Shown piece by piece: positions 13,468-50,166 of a DNA stretch of 64,000 nt. This DNA comes from Muribaculaceae bacterium (GTDB taxonomy: Bacteria > Bacteroidota > Bacteroidia > Bacteroidales > Muribaculaceae), in assembly GCA_017555085.1 (NCBI GenBank), contig JAFZHD010000012.1, forward strand, positions 1 through 64,000, given 5' to 3'. The translations under genes were made by a program, and so were the position numbers. Positions within the stretch are counted from its first letter, which is position 1. Each line of letters starts with the position of its first letter. The notes below the pieces were generated by a model. The model was not told where the DNA came from. It saw only the letters and a program-made list of their open reading frames with translations, and ran no database searches.

Positions 13468-16332
13468 TTACTTATCAGCGACAAATACTTTGCAAACCGT
13501 GCCATTGCTATATTGCACGATGTTCACACCTGCCGTGGGAGCATTTAACTTACGGCCAAAGATGTCGTAGCGGGCTATTTCGGTTACGCCATTCTGCGAC
13601 ACAACTTCGTCTATGCCAACAATTCCGACATAACCGGTCGTGTCATAAATACCATTATTCACCCACGACAAATCGGCTGTTTGCACTCCCGAGCCGTTTG
13701 TGAAAATTATCATTGGCATTGTCATCGATGCTGTGGTGTAAGCCTTGTAATATCCAGTCTGACTGTCCTTGCTTATCTTTGTTCCTGGCCATCGGCCAAA
13801 TATCTCCTTATCGCCGTTGCCTTGATCCCAAGCATAAGCATAAACCGACTGCCAATTTGCTTTGGAGTTGTCAAAATAAGCCACATAAGCATCGGCGGGC
13901 ACTTCGGGATTTACGACGGGTTCATCTGTGACCAATCCGCCTTCAATAGTCTTGACATATCCGTTGGCATCATAATAACCGCCATTAACCCACACATAAT
14001 CACTCGTTTGCGAGCCACTACCGTTATTAAACACAATACCGCCACTGGTTATCACATCACTGCCCGCATAAGTCCACTTCCACACATTATTGCCGAGATA
14101 GACACACACCTCGCCGGGCCACACACCGCCTGTGAAATTAGCCTTATCGTTCCACACCCATGCGCGAATTTTTCCGCTCCATGATGCCGAATTTTCAAAA
14201 AACACAGCCTGCTCGCCTTCTTCCATTGTCGGAGGAATTACCACTTCGGGCTCTTGCGTTCCGGGCGTGCTACCACCATTGTTTTCCGAATCCTCCTCTT
14301 GCGTGCCGTCATAGGCAAGTTGCGATTTATTCACTGATGATGACGCATATAGATATTTACCGTCATCGCCCACTTTACCGGGCGCAGGCGTTTTGTCAGT
14401 ATTCAAGACATATACTCGCATATTACCTTTCCCCGAGCACGATGCCGACAATGTGCCGTTTGTCACAGTCTTACTATCTCCCGTAACACAGTCAACATAA
14501 GTACCGTTTGACACTCCCGAGAATGTGGCTGAGCCGCTGATTGTCACCAACACATAAGAGTCGGTTGACGAGTCGGTGTAACGGCGTTTGAAGGCAAAAT
14601 TTCCGTTGCAACCGCTTGTGCTATATTGACCTTTGCGGAGCGCGGGCACAGCAGCGCGAATGAGATTTAGACGCTGAATGTGCATCGCCAACGGATGTGA
14701 CAGCGTTGCTGCCATGTTACCTTGCGCGTTAGTGTATCGGGCAAAGTCGGTAACATCAACATCACCCTTGATATATCCGCCAAAATAGGCTCGGCCTGTT
14801 TCGCGCAATGCCAACTGAGGACCGTTATCAATAACATATCCTTTTCGGAATTCAATTTCAGAACCGTAATACAAACACGGAATACCACGGAAAGTAAACA
14901 TCAACGACAAGTTTTCGGCCCACACATCTTGCGACTTGGCAAAGCGCTGGCTTTCAGGCGCTCCATCGGGAGCATAGTCGTGTGAATCAACATAAACCAC
15001 ATTATATGTGGCATCGTTATACAACTTATCGCCATCTTTAACTCTCCACGCATCTGATGCTTCGGCAAAGTTCCAATGCATAGGGAAGTCTATCACACTC
15101 AACCCCGAATATCGGCTATAATCGGGAGTGTGATAATCGTTGCCGTTGAGAAATGCGTTGGTCGATGTCGGCATGCCGTTATCGTCGAGATAATCTTTGC
15201 CTTGTGCCTGAACCGATGTGGCATTGACATGATTACCAAAATCGCCTTCTTTTACTACTATTCCGTTCCACGACTCGGTGTCGTAATCCCATGCATAGTC
15301 GGCCGATTCTTTCCAAGTATAAAAATAGGGCGAACAGTTCTCGTGATTGCGATAAGTCACATTGCGGTCGCGCGCACACACCTCGCCATACATAAAGAAC
15401 GGACCGCCATTGCGTTTATCTTTGTATTGCTCGGCCAACTCGTTAAACTGCGGGATAAACGCCTTGTTAAAGGTGAGACGCGAAATGTGGCCCGAAGTGT
15501 CAATGCGAAATCCGTCAACACCCATCTTGATAAATTGGCCATAGCAATCAACCAAATACTCTGCGACATAGGGGTTCTCGGTATTCAAGTCAACGCAGTC
15601 TCCGGCTATTTGCCCCCACCAACGCGAAGGGTCATCCCAACCCCAATTATTGCCGACATGATGCCAATAGTTGTTGACATCGTGGTTTTGGCCGTCGCTG
15701 TTTTTCATTCTTGCCAAGCGTGCGCTATATTGCTCGCCTGCACCAAGTGCATCATAGTTATCGGGGAGTTTACCGCCAACAGATTGTGTGAACGGTATCA
15801 TACACTCATCAATCATCGACTGATTTTTTGTCCAATCGCGACTGAAAAGTTTGCACAAATTTTCTTCGCCAAAGTTACCTGTATGGTTAAGCACTATGTC
15901 AAGCACAATTTTCATACCGCGGTTGTGTGCAGCATCAATGAGCGACTGGAACGACACATCTTCGCTCTCATATCGCTTGTCAACACGACTGAAATTTAGA
16001 GCATGATAGCCGTGATAGTCATATCCCGAGCCGTTTTCAACAACTGGAGTTATCCACACGGTTGTAAAGCCCAAAGCCTTGATATAATCGAGTTTCTCAA
16101 TAAGTCCCTTAAAGTCGCCACGCCATGCGGGGTCACCTTGATTTCGCTCTTGGTTTTCCCAACATTGAGTGTTGTTGCTTGCATCGCCGTCATAAAAACG
16201 GGTAGTCATCACAAAATAGATAGTTTCATCTCGAAAGTCATTGCGGTCGCCGACAAATGTCGCTGCCGTTACGGGCATCACAATGGCCATAATCATAGCC
16301 ACGGCCAACCACCTCATCAATTTAGTCATCAC
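13468..16332 (-). CDS. Secreted alpha-amylase (GH13) with two CBM26-like starch-binding modules
   Basis: This 954-residue protein has a signal peptide without a lipobox (LAVAMIMAIVMPVTAA), so it is exported rather than lipid-anchored like SusG. The GH13 barrel shows region I VLDIVLNHTG, region II GVDGFRIDTSGH (nucleophile Asp near 277), region III FFMYGEVCARD (acid/base Glu near 316) and region IV VVYVDSHDYAPD (Asp near 449). A beta-sandwich domain ends near 660. Two similar modules follow at about 704-790 and 815-897, both with W-P-G, FxNGSG and SWVN/VWVN patterns, resembling CBM26. The final ~45 residues (ARYDIFGRKLNAPTAGVNIV...) look like a Bacteroidetes C-terminal sorting or cap motif. 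Starch or glycogen is the likely substrate. Confidence 0.9.
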   Translation of the reverse strand: MMTKLMRWLAVAMIMAIVMPVTAATFVGDRNDFRDETIYFVMTTRFYDGDASNNTQCWENQERNQGDPAWRGDFKGLIEKLDYIKALGFTTVWITPVVENGSGYDYHGYHALNFSRVDKRYESEDVSFQSLIDAAHNRGMKIVLDIVLNHTGNFGEENLCKLFSRDWTKNQSMIDECMIPFTQSVGGKLPDNYDALGAGEQYSARLARMKNSDGQNHDVNNYWHHVGNNWGWDDPSRWWGQIAGDCVDLNTENPYVAEYLVDCYGQFIKMGVDGFRIDTSGHISRLTFNKAFIPQFNELAEQYKDKRNGGPFFMYGEVCARDRNVTYRNHENCSPYFYTWKESADYAWDYDTESWNGIVVKEGDFGNHVNATSVQAQGKDYLDDNGMPTSTNAFLNGNDYHTPDYSRYSGLSVIDFPMHWNFAEASDAWRVKDGDKLYNDATYNVVYVDSHDYAPDGAPESQRFAKSQDVWAENLSLMFTFRGIPCLYYGSEIEFRKGYVIDNGPQLALRETGRAYFGGYIKGDVDVTDFARYTNAQGNMAATLSHPLAMHIQRLNLIRAAVPALRKGQYSTSGCNGNFAFKRRYTDSSTDSYVLVTISGSATFSGVSNGTYVDCVTGDSKTVTNGTLSASCSGKGNMRVYVLNTDKTPAPGKVGDDGKYLYASSSVNKSQLAYDGTQEEDSENNGGSTPGTQEPEVVIPPTMEEGEQAVFFENSASWSGKIRAWVWNDKANFTGGVWPGEVCVYLGNNVWKWTYAGSDVITSGGIVFNNGSGSQTSDYVWVNGGYYDANGYVKTIEGGLVTDEPVVNPEVPADAYVAYFDNSKANWQSVYAYAWDQGNGDKEIFGRWPGTKISKDSQTGYYKAYTTASMTMPMIIFTNGSGVQTADLSWVNNGIYDTTGYVGIVGIDEVVSQNGVTEIARYDIFGRKLNAPTAGVNIVQYSNGTVCKVFVADK

Positions 16333-16378
16333 TTTAATTGCTATGTTAATGTAATTTTCGGTTCAGTAAAATTTTCTG

Positions 16379-16386
16379 CAAAAATA
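16379..16386 (-). promoter_or_regulatory. Possible -7 box of the GH13 gene
   Basis: On the minus strand this reads TATTTTTG, fitting TAnnTTTG, 47 bases before the amylase ATG. No clear TTTG lies 19-21 bases upstream. Confidence 0.35.
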
Positions 16387-16401
16387 CTGTTTTATGCCGT
16401 A

Positions 16402-16440
16402 TAAAAAACGATAAGACCGCCTTAAACGAGCAGTCTTATC
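16402..16440 (-). terminator. Terminator of the DUF4493/PCMD operon
   Basis: GATAAGAC (16410-16417) pairs with GTCTTATC (16433-16440), and on the minus strand the stem is followed by CGTTTTTTAT. It lies 21 bases past the PCMD stop and separates the four-gene operon from the amylase. Confidence 0.8.
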
Positions 16441-16461
16441 ATCTTTTATGCAAAAATCGGT

Positions 16462-18051
16462 TTATTCGTAGTCATAATGCAACTTGAAGTCATCGACACA
16501 AAGCACACTACCCTCACCACCGGTAAAGAAGTCGCCATATTTACTTGCCGACGACACGATAACGGCGTAACGAGGACGACGGTTGGTTGCACGATATTCA
16601 AGGTTGATTTCAAACGGAGTGTATTCCGACACTGTTTCGCCCCATTGCAATGCGCCATAAGCAATAATCTCGGGCGAATTGAGGTCAATCAACTGACGGT
16701 TTTTGGGGTTAGTGCGAATTTCGAATGGCTCAGCCCAATCGGCCAAAATCATATACACAGTTGCTGTGTCGGGACGACCTTTCAAATGAGTGTATTCGTC
16801 GTTTGAATGACTGATTGTAGCACAATTATACTTCATGTAACCAGTGAGTTTTGTGGGGCGTTCGGTAAACTCACGGCCAAATTTAAGGATACCGTTTGTA
16901 CCGTCTGTCTTGTAGTATTGACCTGTAAAGAGGTTACCTGCCGCTAACTTACCGAGTGAAGCAATACCGATAAACTTGGTTTCCAAGCGCGCCGCTTTTC
17001 CGCTCAACCCTGTGGGTATTTCATCGGTGGGCATGCTATTGCTTTGTCCGAGTGTTGCAGCGCCTTTGTTACCGGTATCCCAAAACGACTCACCATCGGC
17101 AGCCCAAGGATTCCACACTTTGCCATCTTGAAACCAATCATCAAATGAAGCATTGGGAATCACAGCCTCGCTACCTGTTGCAAACTGAACTTCGGGGCTA
17201 TATTCGCCGCCAGAATATGCGCGTGCCACATAATCGGCATTGGGTTCAAGGTGAATCAAACGGCCAACAAAGCTGCCGCCGTCAACTGTTACCCACGATT
17301 GAGGAACTGTCAACCATTCGGCACTTGATGCCAAACGATATTCAAAGCCTGTTTCCTTACCCGATTCGGCCGAACCATAAAGCCATGCAACCTTTGTCCA
17401 TGCATCTACACGGTCAAGAGCCACTGTCTGTTCTGCCATAAGCACATATATTGTCCATTGCTGTGTGCGGCCAAATTCGGTCACATCAACAGTTACAGGC
17501 TCAGTAAAATCAACAATCTGACCGGCCAAGTCGGGCGAATAAACAGCAGTTTCGCCACCCAATTTGATTGACTGCACCTCAACAGCCGACATATCAGCAC
17601 CAGCAGCAACATAAGCCACCACCCTGTTTGCGGGAACATCAATAGATGCTGCACCCACTTGATTGGCAATCACAAAATTACGTTCGATGTTTTGAACGGC
17701 TCTGATTGTCCACACATAGTCTTGATACAATCGCAAAGTTACTCTATAAGGGTTGCTCAAATCAACAACGCCGGGCAACTGTTGTTCGCCCACGATTGAA
17801 GCGCCTGCTGTGATGTTAAACTCTGTAATATTAACATTGTGAATGTCAGCATTTTCGCCAAGCACCAATGTTACGCGGCAATTAACCGAGTCAATAACAG
17901 CGGGTTGTTTAAGACCATCGGCACTCAATGACAAGATATTTGCCTGAATGCGAGCATAGGGAATGTCGTTTTCTATACAACTTGTCATTGCAACCGACAT
18001 TGCAGCCACAAGGCATAAGATTATATATTTGATATTCTTTTTCATATTCAC
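16462..18051 (-). CDS. PCMD-domain surface lipoprotein
   Basis: A 529-residue lipoprotein: the signal ends AAMSVAMTSC, with the acylated Cys at 25. The N-terminal part (about 35-220) has two beta-rich repeats with VDLSNPYRVTLRLYQDYVWTI and VDFTEPVTVDVTEFGRTQQW, a pattern of Bacteroidales cell-surface proteins. The C-terminal ~240 residues, from PNASFDDWFQDGKVWNPWAA onward, match the PCMD (putative carbohydrate metabolism) fold, a jelly-roll presumed to bind glycans. It is the last gene of a four-gene operon, 7 bases after an outer-membrane barrel gene. Its ligand is not known; surface exposure is inferred from the family. Confidence 0.8.
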   Translation of the reverse strand: MNMKKNIKYIILCLVAAMSVAMTSCIENDIPYARIQANILSLSADGLKQPAVIDSVNCRVTLVLGENADIHNVNITEFNITAGASIVGEQQLPGVVDLSNPYRVTLRLYQDYVWTIRAVQNIERNFVIANQVGAASIDVPANRVVAYVAAGADMSAVEVQSIKLGGETAVYSPDLAGQIVDFTEPVTVDVTEFGRTQQWTIYVLMAEQTVALDRVDAWTKVAWLYGSAESGKETGFEYRLASSAEWLTVPQSWVTVDGGSFVGRLIHLEPNADYVARAYSGGEYSPEVQFATGSEAVIPNASFDDWFQDGKVWNPWAADGESFWDTGNKGAATLGQSNSMPTDEIPTGLSGKAARLETKFIGIASLGKLAAGNLFTGQYYKTDGTNGILKFGREFTERPTKLTGYMKYNCATISHSNDEYTHLKGRPDTATVYMILADWAEPFEIRTNPKNRQLIDLNSPEIIAYGALQWGETVSEYTPFEINLEYRATNRRPRYAVIVSSASKYGDFFTGGEGSVLCVDDFKLHYDYE

Positions 18052-18058
18052 AACTGTT

Positions 18059-18835
18059 TTAGATAGTTACACCAATACCCAAACTAATGCTCATCAAGTT
18101 TAATCGATAGTCAACACCAGCCGAGAATCGTGAGCCTTGGTTTGCGCCTGTCTGTTTTGCATCTTTCATATAAAGTTTGAAGATATCAAATGCCACATTG
18201 AAATTGACATTATCAATGATAAAGACGCACACACCGGGAGTGAGGCTTACGCTTGATTCAAACACATTAGTAAGCGTTTCTTGTCCGTCATTCTTATACA
18301 ACGACTCGCTACCGCCAACATTCAAAGCAGCCTCGCCAAACACGGCAAAGCGTTTTGCAGCATCAAGGCCGATATACTTGCGATAGAACACCGAGCCCGA
18401 ATAAGACTTGCTGCCATAGCCCAAGTCGTTAAGGTTGATAGACATATCTTCAGTACCAGCCGAAAGGCTACCCATATTGAGGTCGGCCTGTGTATAATTG
18501 AGGCGAACGCCTATCGATTGGTTGTTTGCAAAGAAATATGATGCAGAGGGCTTGATTGAATAAACTCGCACATTGAAATCGAGGTCATTTATGAGCGACA
18601 ACATTTGAATATCGCTTGCATCAAACTCGGCAAACGATGCGTTTAAGCCTATCTGCCAATCGCCTTTGGGCATGAACAAATAGTTTTTCATACCGCGGTC
18701 AAATCGACCATATTTCTTATCAGTAATAACCGAACTTACCACTTCGTCACCCACAATCACTTTGGGGTCTGATGCAATTGACGACATTGTTACCGACAGC
18801 ATCAACAATATGAATGTAATCTTTAATGTTTTCAT
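18059..18835 (-). CDS. Outer-membrane beta-barrel protein, second of two
   Basis: A 258-residue protein with a signal peptide (FILLMLSVTMSSIA|SDP) and alternating amphipathic strands ending SAGVDYRLNLMSISLGIGVTI, typical of a small outer-membrane barrel of about eight to ten strands. It resembles the neighbouring barrel at 18842-19591 in layout: each has NLVPKG- or MPKGDWQIG-like text after the signal, an FFNEVQ- or FAVFGEAALNVGG-like strand, and a GVxxFI/FL strand. They are probably old duplicates. It lies 7 bases before the PCMD gene and 6 bases after the other barrel. Function unknown; an anchor or assembly partner for the operon's lipoproteins is a guess. Confidence 0.75.
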   Translation of the reverse strand: MKTLKITFILLMLSVTMSSIASDPKVIVGDEVVSSVITDKKYGRFDRGMKNYLFMPKGDWQIGLNASFAEFDASDIQMLSLINDLDFNVRVYSIKPSASYFFANNQSIGVRLNYTQADLNMGSLSAGTEDMSINLNDLGYGSKSYSGSVFYRKYIGLDAAKRFAVFGEAALNVGGSESLYKNDGQETLTNVFESSVSLTPGVCVFIIDNVNFNVAFDIFKLYMKDAKQTGANQGSRFSAGVDYRLNLMSISLGIGVTI

Positions 18836-18841
18836 AACTGA

Positions 18842-19591
18842 CTATAAATAAAATGCGACACCAAATGAGAGTGAGAACAGGTTAAGGTTAAGACTTGCCG
18901 AACGAGAATCGCGTCTTGACACATAGATTTGGTCGGTTGTTGACTTTGTTTCAGAGTAACCGATACCAAGCACACCTACATTTACTTCAAGGGCTGTAAA
19001 GTTATTGAGGAACATCACCACACCGGGAGCAACGCCTAAATTAACATTGTAATTGCGCTCAAATGTACCTGTCAACTGTTGACCGCTACCGTTGCAGAGT
19101 TTTGACTCGCCACCGCCAACAGTGAGTTGCACTTCGTTAAAGAAGGCAAATCGGCGGCTTGTACCCATGCTGATATAGTTGCGGAATGCAGCTGTGGCCG
19201 AATAGTTGTGACTGAGGCTATACAAGTTGTCAACGCCAAAATTGGTATCTTCATTGATTGACACGCTACCTGATTCAAGACGATTTAATGTGCGAGCATA
19301 GCCCACTCGCGCACCGATTGTCATATCATCTTGAAACGCATACATAAGCATAGGGCTTACTTTGAACGAATAACTATCGCCCGACAAACCTTCTACCACA
19401 AAAAATTGGTAATTGTCTTGTTCTGATTGCGAATAACCAACGCTTGCGCCAGTAATCCATTGTCCCTTCGGAACAAAATTAACAAGTTCAAGATTGCGCT
19501 TAAACGGCTGCGCATCTTGCTCTTGGGCCATCATTGGCAACGATGCCACAAGTGTAGCAGCCGCCAATATAGTTTTGAATATATTTTTCAT
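18842..19591 (-). CDS. Outer-membrane beta-barrel protein, first of two
   Basis: A 249-residue protein. The signal peptide (TILAAATLVASLPMMA|QEQ) is followed by NLVNFVPKG-type text, a KGQWITGASVGYSQSEQDN strand and repeated amphipathic strands, ending in an aromatic strand (LFSLSFGVAFYL) that suits outer-membrane barrel insertion. It sits between the DUF4493 gene (7 bases) and the second barrel (6 bases), so the four genes form one transcript. The pairing of two related barrels with two lipoproteins suggests one surface complex. That is inference from gene order. Confidence 0.75.
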   Translation of the reverse strand: MKNIFKTILAAATLVASLPMMAQEQDAQPFKRNLELVNFVPKGQWITGASVGYSQSEQDNYQFFVVEGLSGDSYSFKVSPMLMYAFQDDMTIGARVGYARTLNRLESGSVSINEDTNFGVDNLYSLSHNYSATAAFRNYISMGTSRRFAFFNEVQLTVGGGESKLCNGSGQQLTGTFERNYNVNLGVAPGVVMFLNNFTALEVNVGVLGIGYSETKSTTDQIYVSRRDSRSASLNLNLFSLSFGVAFYL

Positions 19592-19598
19592 ATCTTAA

Positions 19599-21899
19599 TT
19601 ACTCTGTTACTGATTGGAATTTTAATGTTTTAGTTGTCGACAAGTCGGCGGCATCAACCACTGTCAATTCAAAATCGTGTTGGCCGGGGAACATTGCGAG
19701 CAAGGGCATAAAGTCGGTAATGTTAAAAAGCAACTCTGTTTTGCCAACTACCGCTTCGCCAACGGGGAAACCAAGTTCGCCAAGAACTTCGGCCAAATCA
19801 CCAGGGTTAGCCAAGTCAAATTCGGAATCCAAACCTACTTCTTGCAACATCTCTTTTGTCAACATTTCAGAGATAATCTTGACATGAAGATTTGCAATAC
19901 CGTTTTCGGCTACGATATCAACTTTTGCCTGAAGGTTTTCGGTAATGATATTCACTCCATTGATATCGAGCGTTGTGCTTGAAATTTGAGGAGCAGCACC
20001 AACAACTTCTTCAGCCACTGCTTCAAATTGCAATGTTGCAGTAGTTGACAAATCAGCAGCATCAATAACTGTCAATTCAAAGTTGTGTTGACCGGGGAAC
20101 ATTGCAAGCAAAGGCATAAAGTCGGTAATATCAAAGAGCAACTCTGTTTTACCTACAACTGCGTCGCCTACGGGGAAACCGAGTTCGCCAAGAACTTCGG
20201 CCAAATTGCCTGGGTTAGCCAAGTCAAATTCGGAATCCAAACCTACTTCTTGCAACATCTCTTTTGTCAACATTTCAGAAACAATCTTGACTTTAAGATT
20301 TGCAATACCGTTTTCTGCAACAATGTCAACCTTTGCTTTAAGGCCTTCGGTGATAACATTCACACCTTCAAGGTTGAGAGTTGTACTTGTGATAACAGGA
20401 GCAGCACCAACAACTTCTTCAGCAACGGCTTCAAACTTCAATGTTGCAACAGTTGACAAGCCTTGTGCATCAACAACTGTCAATTCAAAATCGTGTTGAC
20501 CAGGGAAGATTGCAAGCAAGGGCATAAAGTCGGTAATATCAAAAAGCAACTCTGTTTTGCCTACAACCGCGTCACCTACGGGGAAACCGAGTTCGCCAAG
20601 AACTTCGGCCAAATCACCTGGGTTAGCCAAGTCAAATTCGGAATCCAAACCTACTTCTTGCAACATCTCTTTTGTCAAGATTTCAGAAATAATCTTAACA
20701 TTAAGATTTGCAATACCGTTTTCTGCAACAATATCAATTTTTGCTTTAAGGTCTTCGGTAATAACATTCACGCCGTTAAGGTCAAGCGTGCTACTTGTAA
20801 TAACAGGAGCCTCGCCGATAACGATTTCGGGGACTTCAAATGCCAATGTAACAACTGTTGACAAGTCTTCGTTGTCAATCACTGTCAACACAAAACTATG
20901 TTGACCGGGGAACATTGCAAGCAAAGGCATAAATTCGGTGATATCAAACTCTATTTGAGTTTTGTCAACTACGGCATCGCCCACGGGGAAACCGAGTTCG
21001 GTGAGCACATCGGCCATTGCGCCGGGATTAGCCAAGTCAAATGATGAGTCCAAGCCAATCTCTTGCAACATTGCTTTATTTAACTGTTCCGAGAAAATCT
21101 CAACATATAAGTTTCTAATACCATAAGCAGCCGAAATATCAACTTTTGCTTGAAGGCCTTCGGTGATTACATTTACACCGTTAAGGTCAAGCGTGCTGCT
21201 TGTTGCCTTGGGTGCTCCGGGGTCGTTGGGGTCTTTTTTATCCACCAATTCCTTAACACCAAACACAAGATTAAGAGAGTCGCCGGCAACGAGGTTGGTC
21301 AACACCTTGCGATAAACCACAGAGTCGCCTTTAACCACACCGCTAAATTTTGCCACAGCAGTAGATGCACCGTCAGCCAAATAGAAATGTGCGACACGAG
21401 ACTCGTTTTTGGCAAATTCGAGTTGTTTACCGGCAATGCTCATCTCTACGGTAGCATTGTCATTAACAAGGTCGGCCACTTCTTCGTCATAAGCAACAGT
21501 CACGCTGACCGATGCAACCGAGCAGTCAACGCAGTCAATCACATGGCGCTTACCTTCTTCAATTTTGAACGCCTTAGTACCGGCATAAAAAGCTTGTTCC
21601 CACACGGGTTCAACCGACTCACTTGACGAAGCCGAAAGAACATAGGCTCCTGCTTCAAGTTCGACATCTAATGGAAAATCGGCACCTGTCCATTGGCCCA
21701 TTGATTGGCCGTCAGCATTGCTGATTTCCACTACATAAGAACTGACATCGGCATTTTCAACTCCGTCGACACACAATTGCGACACCGACAGCAGTCCGTT
21801 TTCCGATTTCATCAATTCTTCGGCATTCCACTCTTCGTCACACGACACCATGGCGATCAATGCGCAGAGCGAAAAAAGCGAATAAATGATTTTTTTCAT
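19599..21899 (-). CDS. DUF4493-type lipoprotein with four near-identical ~137-residue repeats
   Basis: The chosen start (MKKIIYSLFSLCALIAMVSC, acylated Cys at 20) gives 766 residues; the frame continues 35 codons upstream, but without a signal sequence. An N-terminal DUF4493-like domain (about 30-210) has ENGLLSVSQL, YVVEISNADGQSMGQWTG and FPLDVELEAGAYVLSASSS. Four tandem repeats start at about 231, 365, 501 and 638. Each opens with xSSTLDLNGVNVITE, contains MLQEVGLDSEFDLANPG and GFPVGDAVVGKTE, and ends FPGQHDFELTVVDA...LSTxxTLKFE. Repeats 2-4 are almost identical even in DNA; repeat 1 has diverged. A beta-sandwich stalk or adhesin is likely. It is the first gene of the operon. Confidence 0.8.
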   Translation of the reverse strand: MKKIIYSLFSLCALIAMVSCDEEWNAEELMKSENGLLSVSQLCVDGVENADVSSYVVEISNADGQSMGQWTGADFPLDVELEAGAYVLSASSSESVEPVWEQAFYAGTKAFKIEEGKRHVIDCVDCSVASVSVTVAYDEEVADLVNDNATVEMSIAGKQLEFAKNESRVAHFYLADGASTAVAKFSGVVKGDSVVYRKVLTNLVAGDSLNLVFGVKELVDKKDPNDPGAPKATSSTLDLNGVNVITEGLQAKVDISAAYGIRNLYVEIFSEQLNKAMLQEIGLDSSFDLANPGAMADVLTELGFPVGDAVVDKTQIEFDITEFMPLLAMFPGQHSFVLTVIDNEDLSTVVTLAFEVPEIVIGEAPVITSSTLDLNGVNVITEDLKAKIDIVAENGIANLNVKIISEILTKEMLQEVGLDSEFDLANPGDLAEVLGELGFPVGDAVVGKTELLFDITDFMPLLAIFPGQHDFELTVVDAQGLSTVATLKFEAVAEEVVGAAPVITSTTLNLEGVNVITEGLKAKVDIVAENGIANLKVKIVSEMLTKEMLQEVGLDSEFDLANPGNLAEVLGELGFPVGDAVVGKTELLFDITDFMPLLAMFPGQHNFELTVIDAADLSTTATLQFEAVAEEVVGAAPQISSTTLDINGVNIITENLQAKVDIVAENGIANLHVKIISEMLTKEMLQEVGLDSEFDLANPGDLAEVLGELGFPVGEAVVGKTELLFNITDFMPLLAMFPGQHDFELTVVDAADLSTTKTLKFQSVTE
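19600..21215 (-). repeat. Four tandem coding repeats, ~410 bases each
   Basis: Unit starts fall near 21215, 20805, 20395 and 19985, with a period of about 410 bases. Units 2-4 share long identical DNA tracts (for example the tract coding for MLQEVGLDSEFDLANPG), while unit 1 differs more. This allows gain or loss of units by homologous recombination or slippage. Confidence 0.85.
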
Positions 21900-21974
21900 C
21901 TTTCTTAATTTTATGTAATTATTATTATTTACTGTGTTATCAATATGCCAAATAGTTTTTTGACACAAACTCTG

Positions 21975-21982
21975 CAAAGGTA
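21975..21982 (-). promoter_or_regulatory. -7 box of the DUF4493/PCMD operon
   Basis: The minus strand reads TACCTTTG, a perfect -7 box, 75 bases before the chosen ATG at 21899. It also lies within the upstream extension of the frame, which supports the shorter start. No good -33 box is seen at the usual spacing. Confidence 0.5.
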
Positions 21983-24130: not shown

Positions 24131-24856
24131 ATGAAACTTTTACACAAAATCGCAACAGTTGTCGTGGCTTTGTTTATCGCAAACTCAGCCTTCGCACAAA
24201 CAAGTTCAAGTTCAGCACTTCAAGGTCTTTTCGGCAAACTCACAGGTTCAAGCAGCCAAACCAGCAGCTCTTCTAACGAAAGTAGCAGCTCTAACAACAG
24301 CAGTAGCAGCAGTAGCGGTTTGTCTAACATTCTCGGCGCGCTCGGCGGCGTAGTTGAAAACCTCATCTCTACCGACAATATCGAAATCAGCAGCCTCGCC
24401 GGCACTTGGAAATATGCAGCCCCCGCAGTAGCATTCAAGAGCGACGACCTTCTCAAAAAAGCAGGTGGCGCGGCAGTTGCATCACAAGTTGAAGCAAAAC
24501 TCGAAAACTACTACAAATACTTGCGCCTCCAATCAATGCAACTCACTATCGACCAAGCAGGTGCGTTCACAATGGCGTTCAACAAAATCGCTTTGAGCGG
24601 TAACATAACCAAAGACGAAGAAGGCAACCTCCTCTTCAACTTTACCGTCGCTGGCCAAATCAACATCGGCACAGTTAAGACTTATGTGACAAAATCGGGC
24701 GACACTCTCAATGTAATGTTTGATGTCAGCAAATTGATGACCATCCTCGAAAAAGTTGGCTCTTATGTTGGCAACTCTACAATTTCAAGCATCACATCAT
24801 TGTTGAGCACTTACGATGGTATCACAGCCGGTTTCAAATTGACACGAGTTCAATAA
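24131..24856 (+). CDS. DUF4923-like secreted protein with Ser/Asn-rich linker
   Basis: A 241-residue protein with a signal peptide (IATVVVALFIANSAFA|QTS). A low-complexity Ser/Asn segment at about 36-65 (NESSSSNNSSSSSSG and similar) precedes a compact domain from about 80 to the end. That domain begins with ISSLAGTWKYAAPAVAFKSD and has IALSGNITKDEEG and DTLNVMFDVSKLM. The layout matches the DUF4923 family of Bacteroidales, of unknown function. A lipocalin-like envelope protein is a fair picture, but no role is known. It follows the dehydratase by 24 bases and ends before a shared terminator. Confidence 0.75.
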   Translation: MKLLHKIATVVVALFIANSAFAQTSSSSALQGLFGKLTGSSSQTSSSSNESSSSNNSSSSSSGLSNILGALGGVVENLISTDNIEISSLAGTWKYAAPAVAFKSDDLLKKAGGAAVASQVEAKLENYYKYLRLQSMQLTIDQAGAFTMAFNKIALSGNITKDEEGNLLFNFTVAGQINIGTVKTYVTKSGDTLNVMFDVSKLMTILEKVGSYVGNSTISSITSLLSTYDGITAGFKLTRVQ

Positions 24857-37603: not shown

Positions 37604-38644
37604 TTAGTCTTTCAACGGATTTTTGTCTGATTTATACCAATCGATAAAGCGCTTAATGCCTTCGTGCAGCGAAATTGACGGTTTGTAACCCACCTCTGCT
37701 TCAAGGCGCGAGGTGTCGGCATAGGTTTGATATACATCGCCTTGCTGCATGGGTAGATACTCCTTCTTTGCCTCAACGCCAATCGCGCTCTCAATCTCAT
37801 TGATAAAGTCCATCAATTTCACAGGTTGAGAGCAGCCTATGTTGTAAACCTTTGCAGGGACATTATTGGGGCAAGCGACAGCATCGGGGCATTTGTCAAC
37901 AGCCTGAATTGTGCCTTGAACAATATCGTCAATATAGGTAAAATCGCGTGAAAGGTCACCGTTGTTAAACACCTTAATGGCATCGCCCTTGCTTATGGCA
38001 TCGGCAAACAGCATCGGCGCCATATCTGGGCGTCCCCAAGGACCATATACCGTGAAATAGCGCAGCCCGGTTGTCGGCAGATTATAGAGTTTGCTATAAG
38101 AATGAGCCATAAGTTCATTGGCTTTCTTGCTTGCTGCATATAAACTGACAGGCATATCAACCTTATCATCTTCGCTGAAAGGCACTTTGTCGTTCAAGCC
38201 GTAAACCGAACTTGATGATGCATAAACCAAGTAAGCCACCGAGTGATGACGGCAACATTCCAATATGTTCATAAAGCCCACTATATTGCTATCGATATAG
38301 GCATAAGGGTTACTGATTGAATATCTTACACCGGCTTGGGCAGCGAGATTGACCACTTTGTCAAAACCTTCGGTCGCAAACAAAGCGTTGAGCGACTCTC
38401 GGTCGGTCAAATCCATCTTTACAAAGCGATAGTTGGGCAACAACACACTCTGTACCATCTCGCCATCGGCAAAATTGTTATTCTCAACCGCGATGCCACA
38501 CTCGGCCATACGGCCATATTTTAGTCGCACATCATAATAATCGTTGATATTGTCAAGACCAACGACCTCATCGCCTCGTTGGGCCAAACAAAACGCCAAT
38601 TTTGAGCCTATAAACCCGGCTGCTCCGGTTACCAATATCTTCAT
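37604..38644 (-). CDS. NAD-dependent UDP-glucuronate 4-epimerase-type enzyme
   Basis: A 346-residue short-chain dehydrogenase with MKILVTGAAGFIGSKLAF at the start, catalytic YAASKKANELMAHSY (Tyr-x3-Lys), the family segment LRYFTVYGPWGRPDMAPMLF, and DFTYIDDIVQG. The GRPDMAPM text is a mark of UDP-glucuronate epimerases (CapI/GAE type). With the UDP-glucose dehydrogenase of the same operon it would supply UDP-galacturonate. UDP-arabinose or other related epimerisations are possible alternatives. It lies 9 bases after the glycosyltransferase gene. Confidence 0.85.
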   Translation of the reverse strand: MKILVTGAAGFIGSKLAFCLAQRGDEVVGLDNINDYYDVRLKYGRMAECGIAVENNNFADGEMVQSVLLPNYRFVKMDLTDRESLNALFATEGFDKVVNLAAQAGVRYSISNPYAYIDSNIVGFMNILECCRHHSVAYLVYASSSSVYGLNDKVPFSEDDKVDMPVSLYAASKKANELMAHSYSKLYNLPTTGLRYFTVYGPWGRPDMAPMLFADAISKGDAIKVFNNGDLSRDFTYIDDIVQGTIQAVDKCPDAVACPNNVPAKVYNIGCSQPVKLMDFINEIESAIGVEAKKEYLPMQQGDVYQTYADTSRLEAEVGYKPSISLHEGIKRFIDWYKSDKNPLKD

Positions 38645-38653
38645 AAAAACGTC

Positions 38654-39493
38654 TTACTTACTTGATTTTTCCAATACCGACTTACGCAACTTGCTGCCAT
38701 AAACGCGCTTGACCACCGACACAGGCATCAATCGGAACACCAATCGAGCCAACGGATAAACATAACGCCATGTTACCGTGCCATATAGGCGACGAATACC
38801 GTTTACATAAATCTTGTATTCATTAAAAGCTTTATCGCGACTGCGACGCTTAAACACATCGCCCGCACGGCGAAAATTGATCGTGATTTCATCAACATTG
38901 CCTATTTTGTGTCCAGCACACAGAGCATCATACCACAACGCAATGTCTTGACTTGTGCGATAACGCTCATCGTAGCGCAAACCCGAGTCAAACAATCGGC
39001 GGCGCATCATCACCGTCGGGTGAGCCAATGGCGATGCCTTGTAAATATATTGCAACACCTCATCGTTGGTAAGCGGATAACGGCGCACATTCAAGCACTC
39101 GTTTTCATCGTCAAACTCTTGCAAAGCACCGCCAACGATATCCACATCGGCATGCTGTTCAAAATAGGCCACTTGACGTTCAAAACGCAAGGGGTGAGAA
39201 ATATCATCGCTATCCATTCGGGCCACAAAATCGCTCTTGATGCAGGCAATACCCCTATTGAGCGACTTGGTCAACCCTATATTTGACTCATTGACAATCA
39301 AATTTAATTTATCGCCCAATTTTTGTTGCCACGAAGCAATCACGGCCGAGAGTTCGTCGCCGACAGGACCGTCTTGAACGAGGACAATCTCATCGGGTGT
39401 GAGCGACTGCTCGTCCCACACACTCGTCAAAGCCCGATGCAAATACTCAGCCTTCTCCGACCTATAAACCGCCATCAATACCGATATGCTCAT
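38654..39493 (-). CDS. Family 2 glycosyltransferase
   Basis: 279 residues. The GT-A fold starts MSISVLMAVYRSEKAEYLHR, has the metal-binding ARMDSDDISHPLRFE motif near residue 95 (DSDD), and a later ALWYDALCAG segment. No membrane helix is clear, so it is cytoplasmic or peripheral. It would add one sugar of the repeat unit from a nucleotide donor; donor and acceptor cannot be read from sequence. Its start overlaps the previous gene's stop by four bases. Confidence 0.85.
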   Translation of the reverse strand: MSISVLMAVYRSEKAEYLHRALTSVWDEQSLTPDEIVLVQDGPVGDELSAVIASWQQKLGDKLNLIVNESNIGLTKSLNRGIACIKSDFVARMDSDDISHPLRFERQVAYFEQHADVDIVGGALQEFDDENECLNVRRYPLTNDEVLQYIYKASPLAHPTVMMRRRLFDSGLRYDERYRTSQDIALWYDALCAGHKIGNVDEITINFRRAGDVFKRRSRDKAFNEYKIYVNGIRRLYGTVTWRYVYPLARLVFRLMPVSVVKRVYGSKLRKSVLEKSSK

Positions 39494-40389
39494 AACAACT
39501 GGAAATTAGAACCTAATTCAAAATCAAATTCATCGGGCGAATATTGCACATATCCACTCCACGGATAAAATGTAATTTCGCCAAAATATATTTTGCCTTT
39601 TATATTGTAGAAATCAACCCTTGCAAACGGGAAATCTTCGGACAATTTCTCGGCAAGAGCAACCATTTCGGTTATATTTTCGGGCAAGTTGGGTGCTACA
39701 TCAAATGTCGGGTGGTCACTTCTCACACCGGGCAAAAATTCGAGTTTTTCATTCCAAAAACCTCGGCGGTGGTCCGAATATCGGTTTTTGTCAACCCACA
39801 AATAACGAAACTTGCCGTTAAAGCACATAAACTTATAGTCATCGATTGAACCATCGGCATTCTCATCGCTTTCAAGCAACTGTTCTACAATCACTTGCGA
39901 TTTTTTTGCGCCCTTATAGGCCCATTCGCGCGACACAGCATAGTATTTCTTGTTGCGCCAACTGTCAACAAGCGCAACGGTAGCCTCAACATCAATCTCA
40001 TTTTTGTCGTGGCATATATATACATTATCGCCATTTCCACCGTCGGTGGTTTTAATCACAAACTTTTGGGGCAATGACTCAAAATTAATTTCTCGGGCAT
40101 TGTCACACAACTGATACAATTCATTCAAGTATTGTATTGTGCCGAGTTTTGTTTCAACATATTGGCGTACAGCATATTTATCAACACAATCAAGCATCTG
40201 TTCGTTTCGATAAAATGCCTTATAGCACTGAATTTTTTCGGTGAAGCGTTTTGGCGACTTCATATCGGGCCAACGGTGCAATACAATATAATACTGCATC
40301 GGCAACATCAACCGATCAGGAACCCACGAAAAGGCTCTCAATATCGCATGTCGCACAGCCTGACTATGTATCAATCGTTTTATATTCAT
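39490..40389 (-). CDS. TupA-like ATP-grasp protein
   Basis: From the start MNIKRLIHSQAVRHAILRAF the protein has 299 residues. A Met 15 codons upstream would overlap the preceding gene by 41 bases and is less likely. The TupA-like ATP-grasp pattern is clear: KRFTEKIQCYKAFYRN, KFVIKTTDGGNGDNVYICHD, VEQLLES, DDYKFMCFNGKFRYLWVDKN, FPFARVDFYNIKGKIYFGEI and TFYPWSGY. TupA was linked to teichuronopeptide synthesis; many capsule loci carry relatives that probably ligate an amino acid or similar group to the glycan. The substrate here is unknown. Confidence 0.85.
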   Translation of the reverse strand: MNIKRLIHSQAVRHAILRAFSWVPDRLMLPMQYYIVLHRWPDMKSPKRFTEKIQCYKAFYRNEQMLDCVDKYAVRQYVETKLGTIQYLNELYQLCDNAREINFESLPQKFVIKTTDGGNGDNVYICHDKNEIDVEATVALVDSWRNKKYYAVSREWAYKGAKKSQVIVEQLLESDENADGSIDDYKFMCFNGKFRYLWVDKNRYSDHRRGFWNEKLEFLPGVRSDHPTFDVAPNLPENITEMVALAEKLSEDFPFARVDFYNIKGKIYFGEITFYPWSGYVQYSPDEFDFELGSNFQLL

Positions 40390-40393
40390 CGAG

Positions 40394-41242
40394 TTATTGT
40401 TTAATCGTACGTATTCCATCTTTGATTCCGGCAAAAATCGCTTTTATATATTCTTTGCGCGGAGCGACAAATAACGGATAATAAAAAGTTTTGACACTAA
40501 ATTTCACTAAATTCATGCATTTCCAATATTTAGGTACATATCTGCGATTAAGCAATCTAATAAAGTTGCGAAACTGATAATATGACCTAAAAGGTGTTGA
40601 TTTTTTGTAACTAACCGATTCGTCACAACCCTGGAAATGTGAGAACTGCAAATCACACACCACAAAAGTGTCTAATTTTGCTTTATCATGCGCTCTCCAA
40701 CACCATTCATCATCTACGCCATCAATAAACAATTCTTCTTCCATATACCCCACAACAGAGAAAGTGCTTAATTTTACCAATGAAAACGATGATACTATCG
40801 AATATACCTTATAATAGGACTTTCCGTTATTTTCAACAGTTTCCTTAATGATACTCTTTTTCACATAAGACTTTTGAGTCTTACGATTGATTGGTTGCGG
40901 GCCTATCGCAGCGATATTATATGATTTGCTTAACGACTCATAATTTTCCACCAAGAATTTTACCACATTTGCTGTGGCAACGCTATCCTGATCGCTAAAA
41001 ATAATATACTCAAATCCGGCTTTTTCAAAATATCTTATTCCGATATTTTGCGCGACTGCTATCCCCTTATTTTCCAACAACGGAATATAGTTGATTTTGT
41101 CACATTGAGGTATCTTGTGACTATTGTCAACCGATGAGTTATCAATCAGGCATATTTTATCTATTTGAGGCAATAATGCATCAAGGCCATGTTGAAGTAA
41201 CTCAAAATCGGGGTTATATAATACAATTATTGCTCCTATCAT
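40394..41242 (-). CDS. Family 2 glycosyltransferase (rhamnosyltransferase-like)
   Basis: 282 residues: MIGAIIVLYNPDFELLQHGL at the start, CLIDNSSVDNS, GIAVAQNIGIRYFEKAGFEY and IIFSDQDSV, the DxD-type site. ELFIDGVDDEWCWRAHDKAK matches the rhamnosyltransferase-like GT2 group (WbbL/RfbN type). It closely parallels the next gene (41239-42108) in layout, so the two look like diverged duplicates. The DNA is AT-richer than the flanking housekeeping genes. Overlap with the upstream gene is four bases. Confidence 0.87.
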   Translation of the reverse strand: MIGAIIVLYNPDFELLQHGLDALLPQIDKICLIDNSSVDNSHKIPQCDKINYIPLLENKGIAVAQNIGIRYFEKAGFEYIIFSDQDSVATANVVKFLVENYESLSKSYNIAAIGPQPINRKTQKSYVKKSIIKETVENNGKSYYKVYSIVSSFSLVKLSTFSVVGYMEEELFIDGVDDEWCWRAHDKAKLDTFVVCDLQFSHFQGCDESVSYKKSTPFRSYYQFRNFIRLLNRRYVPKYWKCMNLVKFSVKTFYYPLFVAPRKEYIKAIFAGIKDGIRTIKQ

Positions 41243-42108
41243 ATTTTGGCATATATACTTTTATCGTTCTTAAATCCCGCTGAAATACCTTTCAGCATAT
41301 TTTTCAAGATTTTGCATCCGAGTTTAATAACAATCGGGAAATAAAATAGTCTCAAAAAATACTTGACTCCCACATTGCGTTTCCAAGCAAACGGCACATA
41401 ATCTCGACGGCACAGCCACATATAGTTTCTATATTGATAGAAATAACGAATCGGTGCAGAAATCAATATGCTGTAACCACCAATCTTGATTTCGCGCTGC
41501 CCAACATTATGTTTCAGTTGAATTTTATTGGTTATACCCGAAACATATCCTTTGCGTGATGCACGCCAACACCATTCAAAATCAACGGCATCAATAAAGA
41601 GATTTTCATCAAGACCGCCGATGACATCAATCTTACTTAATGCCACGCAAGAGCCCGAACTAATAATCTCACGTCTTTGTTGAAAACCATTATCGACAGT
41701 TTCATATTTGTGAAACACCGACTTGTATTCTTCATCGGTTTTCTCGTTATAAACCGTCGGGCCTAACAAGAACAAATTATTGACATCTTTTTCAATCAGC
41801 ATATACTGCTTTACCATTTCGCTCACAAATTGCGTCTCAACAGCACTATCTTGGTCAAAGAAAACGACATGAGAGCAACCTGCCTCTTTGGCTTTGGCTA
41901 TTCCGATATTTTGAGCATAGGCAATACCTTTATTTCCCACCAACGGAATATATTGACAATCCTCCGTTGCGAAATGTGCGCTATTATCAACAGCCGAATT
42001 ATCCACCAATATCAATCGACACACACCATTAACCCGACTAACAGTTTGTTTGACCAAACTCAAATCGGGGTTATACAACACTATTATTACCGCAGCCTCA
42101 TTGCCCAT
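41239..42108 (-). CDS. Family 2 glycosyltransferase (rhamnosyltransferase-like)
   Basis: 289 residues from MGNEAAVIIVLYNPDLSLVK; the frame extends 21 codons further upstream, into the EpsG gene, without family resemblance. Key parts are LILVDNSAVDNS, GIAYAQNIGIAKAKEAGCSH, VVFFDQDSAVE and NLFIDAVDFEWCWRASRKG. It shares these with its downstream neighbour. The donor sugar is uncertain: the window has RmlA/B/C but no RmlD, so a dTDP-rhamnose donor would need rmlD elsewhere. Confidence 0.87.
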   Translation of the reverse strand: MGNEAAVIIVLYNPDLSLVKQTVSRVNGVCRLILVDNSAVDNSAHFATEDCQYIPLVGNKGIAYAQNIGIAKAKEAGCSHVVFFDQDSAVETQFVSEMVKQYMLIEKDVNNLFLLGPTVYNEKTDEEYKSVFHKYETVDNGFQQRREIISSGSCVALSKIDVIGGLDENLFIDAVDFEWCWRASRKGYVSGITNKIQLKHNVGQREIKIGGYSILISAPIRYFYQYRNYMWLCRRDYVPFAWKRNVGVKYFLRLFYFPIVIKLGCKILKNMLKGISAGFKNDKSIYAKI

Positions 42109-42109
42109 A

Positions 42110-43150
42110 TCAATACATTTTATAGACTTCATCTCCAAACATTTGAAGTCGATACAAACAATACAAGACATTAAATGCGACTATCGCCAAAATAAAAGTT
42201 CGGCCCTTTTTATCGACCTTCATAAGTTGAGGTATCAGCAACAATTCAAGGGCTACGATACCATAGGCCATTCGGTAAGATGTCGGCATAATCGACACCA
42301 AACACAAGAACAAAACGCCAAAGCAAAACAACCTTGACAAGAAGTTTCGCGATAACACCTTATATGAATAAACAGCGACAGCACATGTGGGCACCAACAT
42401 CGGGATAAGCCCAAATAGTGTTCTTGACAACTCTATTTTATAATCGGTATAGTGTGAGTATTTGTCCAAACCTAATATCGGATTTTTCTCTAACAGTCTA
42501 ATCAAGTCTTGGATAAATGCCACCTCCGAGAACACCAACGCAAACGCCAATGCGCATGTCATCAAAATTAGCATCAATTTGTTGGACATTTTCACATAAT
42601 AGGCCAACACAATCAACGGCACATATATCAATGAGCTTGAATGAAACCCAATCGCTATCAACATACAAATCAGCGCTTTCCAATACTTTTTGTCATCAAT
42701 AAGCAAATATGCCCACAATAAGAATGGCGTTGAGATTGATTGACGAACAATGTTCATCGTTTCCAAGAAATAAGAGTTATAGGCAACGATAAACAAAAGC
42801 ACTGACAATGAGAAATCAAAACTTCGGCGCTTAAATAGCCAAAACAGCGGAATATAAGCTAGCAACGACATTATAAATTGGGCATCATAAGGCGACAAGT
42901 CCATATCGCGCATCGTCTTCACCAACCAATAAAATATCGGTTCATCAGCATAATATTCCAATAAACGGGGCGAGTTATAGATAGTCAAATACATTGAGGT
43001 ATCAGCACCTACCGATTCGTGTCGAAAGGCACACACCACAAACATTGCGAGCATCAGCAACATGCTAACAACATTGCCAATTACTTTATATTTGCCTTTG
43101 AAACAGCACGCAAATACCGCAATTACTACTATGACTATATATATACTCAT
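42110..43150 (-). CDS. EpsG-family polysaccharide polymerase-like membrane protein
   Basis: 346 residues with about ten hydrophobic helices. The family features are ACCFKGKYKVIGNVVSM-type text near the start, FRHESVGADTSMYLTIYN (R-x-x-x-G-x-D-T-x-x-Y, the EpsG hallmark) near 50, and ETMNIVRQSISTPFLLWAYL near 130. It probably works as the Wzy-type polymerase that joins repeat units on the periplasmic side. It is the only polymerase candidate in the operon. Neighbouring genes abut within 2 bases. Confidence 0.82.
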   Translation of the reverse strand: MSIYIVIVVIAVFACCFKGKYKVIGNVVSMLLMLAMFVVCAFRHESVGADTSMYLTIYNSPRLLEYYADEPIFYWLVKTMRDMDLSPYDAQFIMSLLAYIPLFWLFKRRSFDFSLSVLLFIVAYNSYFLETMNIVRQSISTPFLLWAYLLIDDKKYWKALICMLIAIGFHSSSLIYVPLIVLAYYVKMSNKLMLILMTCALAFALVFSEVAFIQDLIRLLEKNPILGLDKYSHYTDYKIELSRTLFGLIPMLVPTCAVAVYSYKVLSRNFLSRLFCFGVLFLCLVSIMPTSYRMAYGIVALELLLIPQLMKVDKKGRTFILAIVAFNVLYCLYRLQMFGDEVYKMY

Positions 43151-43152
43151 TC

Positions 43153-44307
43153 CTATCTCTTTTGTGCTTTCTTGACATTTGGATAGTAATCAAATGTCTC
43201 TTGGAGTATTCTTTTGGGGCATCTTTTCATATACTGAACATAATACCCAAACGGAATTTTCACTTTTTCCTTTAGATGAGATTCACTTACTACCTCATTG
43301 TAAACATCTTGATATAACTCAACCATTTTTACAGGAGAGAAATCGACACAGACAGTTTGTCGTGCACACTCCCCTATCTTTTTTCGGTATTCAAAATCGG
43401 CCGCTAATTTTTCGGCATACGCCACAAATTCGGCAGCATTATTTGCTATAAATCCGTTTTTGCCGTGTTCAAATCTTTCCTTCGGAGCCTCACAGCCCAT
43501 ATACACCACGGGCTTTCTCATATTCATTGCCAAGCCCAAATTTGCGTCAATCGATGCATGAGAATCTTTGGGGATATAATATAATACCACATCAAATGAT
43601 TTGCACACATCAAACCATTTATTAAACGGCAACATACCGTGAAGCACAACATTATCTCGCTTTTCGGCCTCTTTTGACACCCAATTATCGCCTTTGGGAA
43701 CGCCTGCAATGTGAAATTCTTTATTGGGGACATTTATCGCATCAAAGATTTCAAACATATCTCTTGGACACTTTGACAATGTAGTACCACGGCCAAAAAT
43801 TATTTTACCGTCAGTTCTTTGGATATATTCAATATCTTGTGTGTTGTCTATGTCGTCAGAATTACAAAAATATATCTGCGCCTTTTTGCTTTCAGGCACA
43901 AAACTCAATATGGAATCGTTGTATGAAGCCTTATCTATCATAACGAAACAGTCGGTTTTCTTTATTTCGTATGGGCTCATTAACAACGATTTATATGATG
44001 GTCGTTGACAAATTGATGTAACAACCGGCAGTTTCAAGCCTTTCTTTTTTAATGAGGCTAAAAATTGGCATAACACATTTGATGATGTGCCCTTGAAGTA
44101 ATGTATCAAGTCATATTCCTTAAAATCCATCTGCTGAAATTCGTCACTGCCATATTCAACAACATTCAAGTCCGATTTTTGGGCATAGTTCCACTTTGCA
44201 ACAATCAAATGTTTATTGCCGTCGCCACGCTCCTTGACATAATTGGCCAAAGCATCGCTTACACCGTCGCCGTCCTTGTATAATGACAATAGGAATATAA
44301 TTCTCAT
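43153..44307 (-). CDS. GT-B type glycosyltransferase (family 4-like)
   Basis: 384 residues, starting MRIIFLLSLYKDGDGVSDAL. It has a two-domain layout: an N-terminal acceptor half with DLIHYFKGTSSNVLCQFLAS, and a C-terminal half with KIIFGRGTTLSKCPRDMFEI, EFHIAGVPKGDNW, DVVLYYIPKDSHASIDANLG and RKPVVYMGCEAPKERFEHGK, which together resemble family 4 transferases. The usual EGFG/ExxE motif is altered, so assignment to a family is less firm than for the GT2 genes. The DNA is AT-rich, with rare codons, as often in capsule cores. Confidence 0.7.
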   Translation of the reverse strand: MRIIFLLSLYKDGDGVSDALANYVKERGDGNKHLIVAKWNYAQKSDLNVVEYGSDEFQQMDFKEYDLIHYFKGTSSNVLCQFLASLKKKGLKLPVVTSICQRPSYKSLLMSPYEIKKTDCFVMIDKASYNDSILSFVPESKKAQIYFCNSDDIDNTQDIEYIQRTDGKIIFGRGTTLSKCPRDMFEIFDAINVPNKEFHIAGVPKGDNWVSKEAEKRDNVVLHGMLPFNKWFDVCKSFDVVLYYIPKDSHASIDANLGLAMNMRKPVVYMGCEAPKERFEHGKNGFIANNAAEFVAYAEKLAADFEYRKKIGECARQTVCVDFSPVKMVELYQDVYNEVVSESHLKEKVKIPFGYYVQYMKRCPKRILQETFDYYPNVKKAQKR

Positions 44308-44312
44308 TTTTC

Positions 44313-44966
44313 TTACTTTTTATTCTCTATAATAACCCCGGGCATACCTATCACTCGCGAATTTGCCGGTACTGGTTTGGTTACCAATGTACGAGCCGCA
44401 AGAAACGAATTCTGACCGATTGTACCGACCTTGCCCGATATAGTTAACACGCCTTGACCTACAAACACATTATCCTCAATCGTAGTATAAGCGCCAATAG
44501 TCGAACTGCCCGCTATAAAGCAGTTACAGCCAATCGTGCAAGTATGAGATATATCGGCATTTGATAGTATTATTGTGTTTTGCTTCACAACAGTGTCGGC
44601 CTGAACATACACAAACGGAGAGATATACACCGCAACTGGCGAAATTGTCGCAAATCGCGACACCACAGCTGTCGGGTGAATCATTGAAGGCACATTACCG
44701 CCAAGGGCCAAAATCTTGGCAAGCAATTGAGTGCGAATTTCGTTATCGCCCATTGTGAGCATGAAATTCATGCCTTCAAGCGACCCGCGAGCAAACAAAT
44801 CATCAAACGAGCCAATGATTTCATAACCATGGTCTATTTCGCCTGTTCGTGTATCATTATAGTGATACAATCCCTTGATTTTATATCCGCAAGCCTCGGC
44901 CAAGTCAATAGATACAGGTGTATTATGACCTATGCCTAACGCATATATTTCTTTTTCGTGCTGCAT
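44313..44966 (-). CDS. NeuD/PglD/VioB-type sugar O- or N-acetyltransferase
   Basis: 217 residues. The N-terminal Rossmann-like part (YALGIGHNTPVSIDLAEACG, YHYNDTRTGEIDHGYEIIGS) is followed by a left-handed beta helix of hexapeptide repeats (VVKQNTIILSNADISHTCTI, GAYTTIEDNVFVGQGV) and a closing PANSRVIGMPG. NeuD and PglD/VioB relatives acetylate a sialic acid or a 4-amino sugar nucleotide. Because it overlaps a DegT aminotransferase gene by one base, acetylation of a freshly made 4-amino-deoxy sugar is the best guess. Confidence 0.85.
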   Translation of the reverse strand: MQHEKEIYALGIGHNTPVSIDLAEACGYKIKGLYHYNDTRTGEIDHGYEIIGSFDDLFARGSLEGMNFMLTMGDNEIRTQLLAKILALGGNVPSMIHPTAVVSRFATISPVAVYISPFVYVQADTVVKQNTIILSNADISHTCTIGCNCFIAGSSTIGAYTTIEDNVFVGQGVLTISGKVGTIGQNSFLAARTLVTKPVPANSRVIGMPGVIIENKK

Positions 44967-47522: not shown

Positions 47523-47534
47523 CAGTCGGTGTTA

Positions 47535-48647: not shown

Positions 48648-48661
48648 TTTATATATCGTGT

Positions 48662-49231: not shown

Positions 49232-49240
49232 ATCAACTAA

Positions 49241-50146: not shown

Positions 50147-50166
50147 AACTTCATGGTTTTATTTTG

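Follow-up and report, generated by a model that had tools for sequence, protein, structure and literature searches.

A conserved operon of small barrels and PCMD and DUF4493 lipoproteins in Muribaculaceae, tentatively read as a surface glycan-binding complex

A four-gene operon encoding a DUF4493 lipoprotein (P0001), two small predicted outer-membrane barrels (P0002 and P0003, here barrels A and B) and a PCMD-domain lipoprotein (P0004) occupies positions 16462-21899 of a 64,000-nucleotide (nt) stretch of DNA (the window) from a 2.34 Mb Muribaculaceae-type genome whose closest relatives are metagenome-assembled genomes from the ruminant gut. All four open reading frames lie on the minus strand, at the coordinates given in a preliminary description based on the sequence, and they resemble outer-membrane and surface proteins, as that description had held. 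Barrel A, barrel B and the PCMD lipoprotein form an invariant core that recurs across related genomes. The operon is tentatively interpreted as encoding a surface complex that binds glycans independently of SusCD and is held by small outer-membrane barrels, possibly serving attachment. Its components belong to known families, and it is the barrel-centred arrangement without SusCD that appears to be undescribed: the open-licence full-text literature yielded no papers naming DUF4493, "PCMD domain", PF13201 or DUF4923, in line with the earlier failure to match the gene set to any described system. The features of the operon are as follows.

19599..21899, minus strand: P0001, lipoprotein, 766 amino acids (aa) (Pfam, translation, AlphaFold2, repeat analysis)
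18842..19591, minus strand: P0002, predicted outer-membrane barrel A, 249 aa (translation, AlphaFold2, Foldseek, orthologs)
18059..18835, minus strand: P0003, predicted outer-membrane barrel B, paralog of barrel A, 258 aa (BLASTP, gene order)
16462..18045, minus strand: P0004, PCMD lipoprotein, 527 aa from the ATG (Pfam, PDB matches)
21974..21982, minus strand: Bacteroidota-type -7 box TACCTTTGC, ~75 nt upstream of the P0001 ATG
16401..16449, minus strand: intrinsic terminator of the operon, with 20-nt arms, a 9-nt loop and a U run (folding)

A conserved core of two barrels and a PCMD lipoprotein

Conservation was assessed from a genome-collection scan started with barrel A (267 relatives, 80 kept), a survey of 99 genomes of the family and one of 295 genomes of the order; locus counts refer to the 107 loci left after five duplicates were dropped. 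Genes for barrel A, barrel B and the PCMD lipoprotein were consecutive in 92 of these loci (median spacing 5 and 11.5 nt), while barrel B directly followed barrel A in 95; in eight, the PCMD lipoprotein gene was the one called immediately downstream of barrel A. The genes therefore form a conserved unit and not a chance neighbourhood. DUF4493 genes stood directly upstream of barrel A in 60 loci and were not directly upstream in 41, although some genomes without an adjacent DUF4493 gene carried the cluster on another contig (for example, genome G002, with DUF4493 on contig C48 and the barrels on contig C37). The commonest DUF4493-containing form had three DUF4493 lipoproteins (31 loci), namely proteins of ~830 aa and ~420 aa and a DUF4493-PCMD fusion of ~710 aa, and up to four occurred in tandem. 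The window arrangement, with one DUF4493 gene immediately before barrel A, was found in 22 loci, so that of the four-gene order originally proposed the core holds widely, whereas the one-DUF4493 arrangement is less common than that with three. Because loci of the complete form mostly encode three DUF4493 lipoproteins, the window locus is a reduced form with an extended stalk.

Within the family survey, barrel A and DUF4493 were found together in 77 genomes, barrel A alone in none, DUF4493 without barrel A in 10 and neither in 12 (Fisher p = 7e-10, a value that ignores relatedness and so overstates the significance). The 12 genomes with neither span five genera, and genera g1 and g13 include both states, so that joint loss or gain occurred more than once. 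Matches were present in 33 of the 295 genomes of the order survey. Distant Bacteroidales encoded either a minimal pair of barrel and PCMD protein (L174, L180) or, in L164-L169, a single barrel accompanied by several DUF4493 lipoproteins. A second PCMD type (~375-404 aa), also present in genomes that lack the studied operon, was paired with a different small barrel of ~250-270 aa (L043:3873-5778, L045:14727-16645, L047:4982-6973 and L050:5086-7096), and both of its barrels tested (L043 and L047) belonged to PF13568. The minimal pairs, together with this second type and its PF13568 barrel, show that a PCMD protein with a barrel is a recurring theme. A phage origin was rejected, as relatives were absent from viral contigs.

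The layout in the window is that of a single unit: as first described, four tightly packed genes share one -7 box and one terminator. The gaps are 7 nt (P0001-P0002), 6 nt (P0002-P0003) and 13 nt (P0003-P0004), the last being 7 nt if P0004 begins at a possible GTG at 18051, and the uniform spacing of 6-7 bases reported before thus applies to the first two gaps and to the third only with this alternative start. Because the TACCTTTGC motif occurs 47 times in the window against 29 expected, a modest excess over chance, support for the -7 box comes from its position. The terminator hairpin has a predicted folding energy of -27 kcal/mol (z = -6.2). An invertible promoter was also considered and rejected, since the intergenic inverted repeats were short and AT-rich and none was convincing, and an Rfam scan of the window returned only a single tRNA. 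PCMD and DUF4493 each occur once in this genome, both inside the operon.

Barrel A has a signal peptide, 10 predicted strands and a C-terminal FYL, and its AlphaFold2 model (predicted local distance difference test score, pLDDT, 83.5) matched the OmpA, OmpW and NspA class in Foldseek. It shares 28% identity with barrel B (BLASTP E = 5e-24), which establishes the paralogy behind the earlier claim of two related barrels. Neither P0002 nor P0003 matched a Pfam family above cut-off, and PF13505 was weakly matched by 12 of 38 barrel homologs. A predicted 10-strand barrel is likewise found in small barrels of the OmpA/OmpX/OmpW types (PF13505/PF13568), from which P0002 and P0003 differ in being nearly always paired with PCMD lipoproteins. 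A PorP/SprF-like or secretion barrel was rejected, as no such fold match was obtained and FapF appeared only at a low template modelling (TM) score; the secretion role proposed in the preliminary description is not supported.

Domain content of the PCMD and DUF4493 lipoproteins

P0004 is a lipoprotein (CIENDIPYPR) with immunoglobulin (Ig)-like N-terminal domains and a C-terminal PCMD jelly-roll at residues 300-522 (PF13201, E = 3e-46; 158.5 bits versus a gathering cut-off of 28). The PCMD profile matches four PDB structures, 3hbz (BT2081), 3s30, 4jrl and 4het. BT2081 combines an Ig-like domain and a jelly-roll with a deep conserved pocket and has Asp259 (near Arg290) and Asp338 as possible catalytic residues (PMC2954218). 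Across ~107 orthologs, the BT2081 pocket residues Asn149, Gly151, Asn200, Phe202, Phe206, Tyr261, Asp338 and Phe340 are either retained or exchanged for similar residues, with Tyr at the Phe206 position and Tyr or Trp at the Tyr261 position. In contrast, the Asp259/Arg290 pair is not kept, position 259 being Ile, His, Thr or Val and position 290 variable. Because the pocket residues are retained and Asp259 and Arg290 are not, the PCMD lipoprotein is, judging from its sequence, more likely a binder than an enzyme, and a glycosidase role is disfavoured by the absence of the proposed catalytic pair. P0004 also has an Ig-like domain ahead of the PCMD domain as in BT2081, but its N-terminus is longer and its partners are small barrels instead of SusC.

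Without its signal peptide, the N-terminal part of P0004 matches BT1761 (8a9y chain T, E 5.5e-7), a levan surface glycan-binding protein whose Ig domains are located on the transporter lip of the levan utilisome (PMC7618045). A lipid anchor and Ig-like spacers are common to both proteins; however, the C-terminal ligand domain is PCMD in P0004 and DUF4960 in BT1761, and the operon has neither a SusCD transporter nor a hydrolase. Similarly, the SusC/SusD pair and the conserved glycoside hydrolase of a Sus-like polysaccharide utilisation locus are both absent from the locus, and SusC/SusD were not found among the operon genes, the scanned flanking genes of the window or the identified recurrent neighbour clusters. 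Membership in the lipoproteins associated with the barrel assembly machinery (BAM) was rejected, the Bacteroidota BAM publications examined making no mention of PCMD.

P0001 has a lipobox at Cys20 (CDEEWNAEE), an N-terminal DUF4493 domain at about residues 34-222 (PF14900, E = 5.7e-28 over residues 48-222; 98.7 bits versus a gathering cut-off of 27) and four Ig-like repeats at about residues 229-762. It had been called a DUF4493 repeat lipoprotein, and it is indeed a lipoprotein with DUF4493; that domain, however, is single and N-terminal, and what repeats is an Ig-like unit of 135-136 aa, present four times. At the DNA level, units 2-4 are mutually 84-88% identical and ~70% identical to unit 1, and the AlphaFold2 model (pLDDT 86.9) shows an identical confident strand-and-helix pattern in each. 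The Foldseek matches of P0001 were tandem Ig-like chains, although this search was dominated by multi-domain Ig chains and did not address DUF4493 alone. The stalk repeats resemble the extender domains of RTX and ice adhesins (6xi1, 4p99; low TM). Among 56 distinct unit-carrying DUF4493 proteins, 51 had one unit, two had two, two had three and only P0001, with the longest stalk sampled, had four. A close relative, L055, whose barrel A is 96% identical, has three units, so the length of the stalk changes over short spans of time. P0001 is nearest to the second, ~420 aa type of DUF4493 lipoprotein.

At least two acidic residues in the six following the lipid-bearing Cys, as in the lipoprotein export signal, are present in both P0001 (CDEEWNA) and P0004 (CIENDIP). 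Such residues occurred in 77 of 110 DUF4493 proteins, compared with 20 of 86 other lipoproteins. Counts of this kind support surface exposure for the DUF4493 proteins, though not clearly for the PCMD lipoproteins.

Glycan binding and competing interpretations

If the operon does encode a glycan-binding complex, the two small OmpA/OmpW-type barrels would sit in the outer membrane as docking platforms for lipoproteins exposed at the cell surface. The PCMD lipoprotein, its domain raised on Ig-like spacers like those of surface glycan-binding proteins in Sus utilisomes, would use its jelly-roll pocket to bind, but not cleave, a sugar or the end of a glycan. The DUF4493 lipoprotein would serve as a membrane-anchored base whose variable-length Ig-repeat stalk extends the assembly and, in most relatives, further DUF4493 proteins that also carry PCMD domains would probably act as reaching arms. 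The most likely purpose would be retention on, or attachment to, glycans. Several observations weigh against this interpretation. The fold match of barrel A is generic (E ~5e-5, TM ~0.4), and the export signal occurs in 20 of 80 PCMD lipoproteins, which is no enrichment over the 20 of 86 other lipoproteins. In addition, carbohydrate is inferred as the PCMD ligand from fold and context, we know of no ligand for any PCMD protein, and neither a glycoside hydrolase nor SusCD was found among the identified recurrent neighbours.

The same proteins could instead organise the cell's own envelope. In that case capsule, exopolysaccharide or lipopolysaccharide would be bound by the PCMD lipoproteins, and this layer would be fixed to the outer membrane by the barrels and DUF4493 proteins. 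The wide occurrence of the system in the family and the 58% mean column identity of the PCMD lipoprotein, unlike niche-specific glycan loci, fit such a role, as do the lack of recurring hydrolases, a divergent CapD-like polysaccharide nucleotide-sugar gene (PF02719) adjoining the locus in 8 distinct relatives and an exopolysaccharide cluster at 37.6-54.8 kb of the window. Nevertheless, this role is considered unlikely, as the CapD neighbour is confined to few relatives, the exopolysaccharide cluster lies ~16 kb from the operon and no capsule-binding PCMD protein is known to us. It is also quite unlikely that the operon is an uptake module in which the barrels are small pores or channels fed oligosaccharides by the PCMD and DUF4493 lipoproteins, because ten-strand barrels of the OmpA/OmpW class are usually too narrow for oligosaccharides and neither SusCD nor a conserved hydrolase is present. 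Uptake would agree with the resemblance of the P0004 N-terminus to a surface glycan-binding protein, a Porin_O_P-like gene located 3 nt downstream in 6 loci, and the location of BT2081 and other PCMD proteins close to SusC within polysaccharide-utilisation loci (PMC2954218). The alpha-amylase downstream of the operon would point the same way, but outside the window this linkage recurs only in L055, which leaves the connection to starch suggested in the preliminary description unsupported.

DUF4493 itself appears weakly related to the Mfa2/FimB fimbrial anchors (PF08842), a lead and not a membership. Without its signal peptide, DUF4493 aligned to these anchors with an hhalign probability of 61% (p = 8e-5), compared with at most 3.3% in all 14 control pairs; one DUF4493 family member matched PF08842 (E = 0.0014), and the DUF4493 profile weakly matched 3gf8/BT1062 (E 0.46). 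The seven + seven strands predicted in the AlphaFold2 model of DUF4493 match the core strand count of BT1062, a protein of two transthyretin-like domains (PMC2954217). These similarities, and the tandem DUF4493 lipoproteins, raise the idea of a fimbria-like system: the DUF4493 lipoproteins, as relatives of type V (Mfa/Fim) subunits, would polymerise or would cap a short appendage whose tip adhesin is PCMD. Such a system is improbable, however, given that the published fimbrial operon includes no mention of barrels (PMC2954217), that fimbrillins were absent from the Foldseek top 50 for P0001, which also has no Pfam fimbrillin match, and that a single DUF4493 gene is left in the window genome. 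Moreover, unlike Mfa2/FimB, DUF4493 proteins bear C-terminal Ig or PCMD domains and adjoin barrels, and the operon is without fimbrillin subunit genes. Joining this lead to the favoured glycan-binding interpretation gives a bolder and rather doubtful proposal, that of an undescribed Bacteroidales surface machine in which barrels dock sugar-binding lipoproteins on a base derived from a fimbrial anchor, forming an appendage that binds glycans but has neither SusCD nor a fimbrial shaft.

Neighbouring genes and biological meaning

Three further features of the window lie close to the operon.

13468-16332, downstream of the operon: alpha-amylase, 954 aa, with two CBM26 stretches
16378-16386, minus strand: -7-like box upstream of the amylase gene (motif)
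24131..24856, plus strand: DUF4923 lipocalin-like secreted protein, possible extra partner (Pfam E 3.1e-44)

The separate -7-like box preceding the amylase gene is in line with its having its own transcript, as previously claimed. The DUF4923 gene is one gene apart from the operon in the window, behind a CapD-like gene, and was linked in 35 distinct loci, where it is usually divergent, although in L118 and L121 it follows the PCMD gene at a distance of 4 nt. It was present in 95 of the 99 family genomes, mostly as a single copy, and because these include genomes without the barrel/PCMD system it is considered a linked rather than a dedicated gene. A PF13568 small barrel was a recurrent same-strand neighbour (21 loci, median gap 42 nt). 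Elsewhere, the window carries an exopolysaccharide/capsule cluster on the minus strand (37604-54810; epimerase, glycosyltransferases, Wzx-type flippase and Wzc-like kinase) and a choloylglycine-hydrolase family protein of the bile-salt hydrolase type (PF02275, 59292-60386), while a 1069-aa frame at G000:C33:37600-38070 has a weak Mfa2 match (E 6e-4) and is perhaps another fimbria-related surface protein.

The locus occurs in 77 of the 99 sampled genomes of an abundant gut family of Muribaculaceae type and in scattered other Bacteroidales families. For two families of proteins without a known function it supplies an ordered set of testable partners, and it speaks against these PCMD proteins being hydrolases. 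Should the operon prove to encode an attachment complex, this would be one candidate means by which these bacteria hold to mucus or plant fibre.

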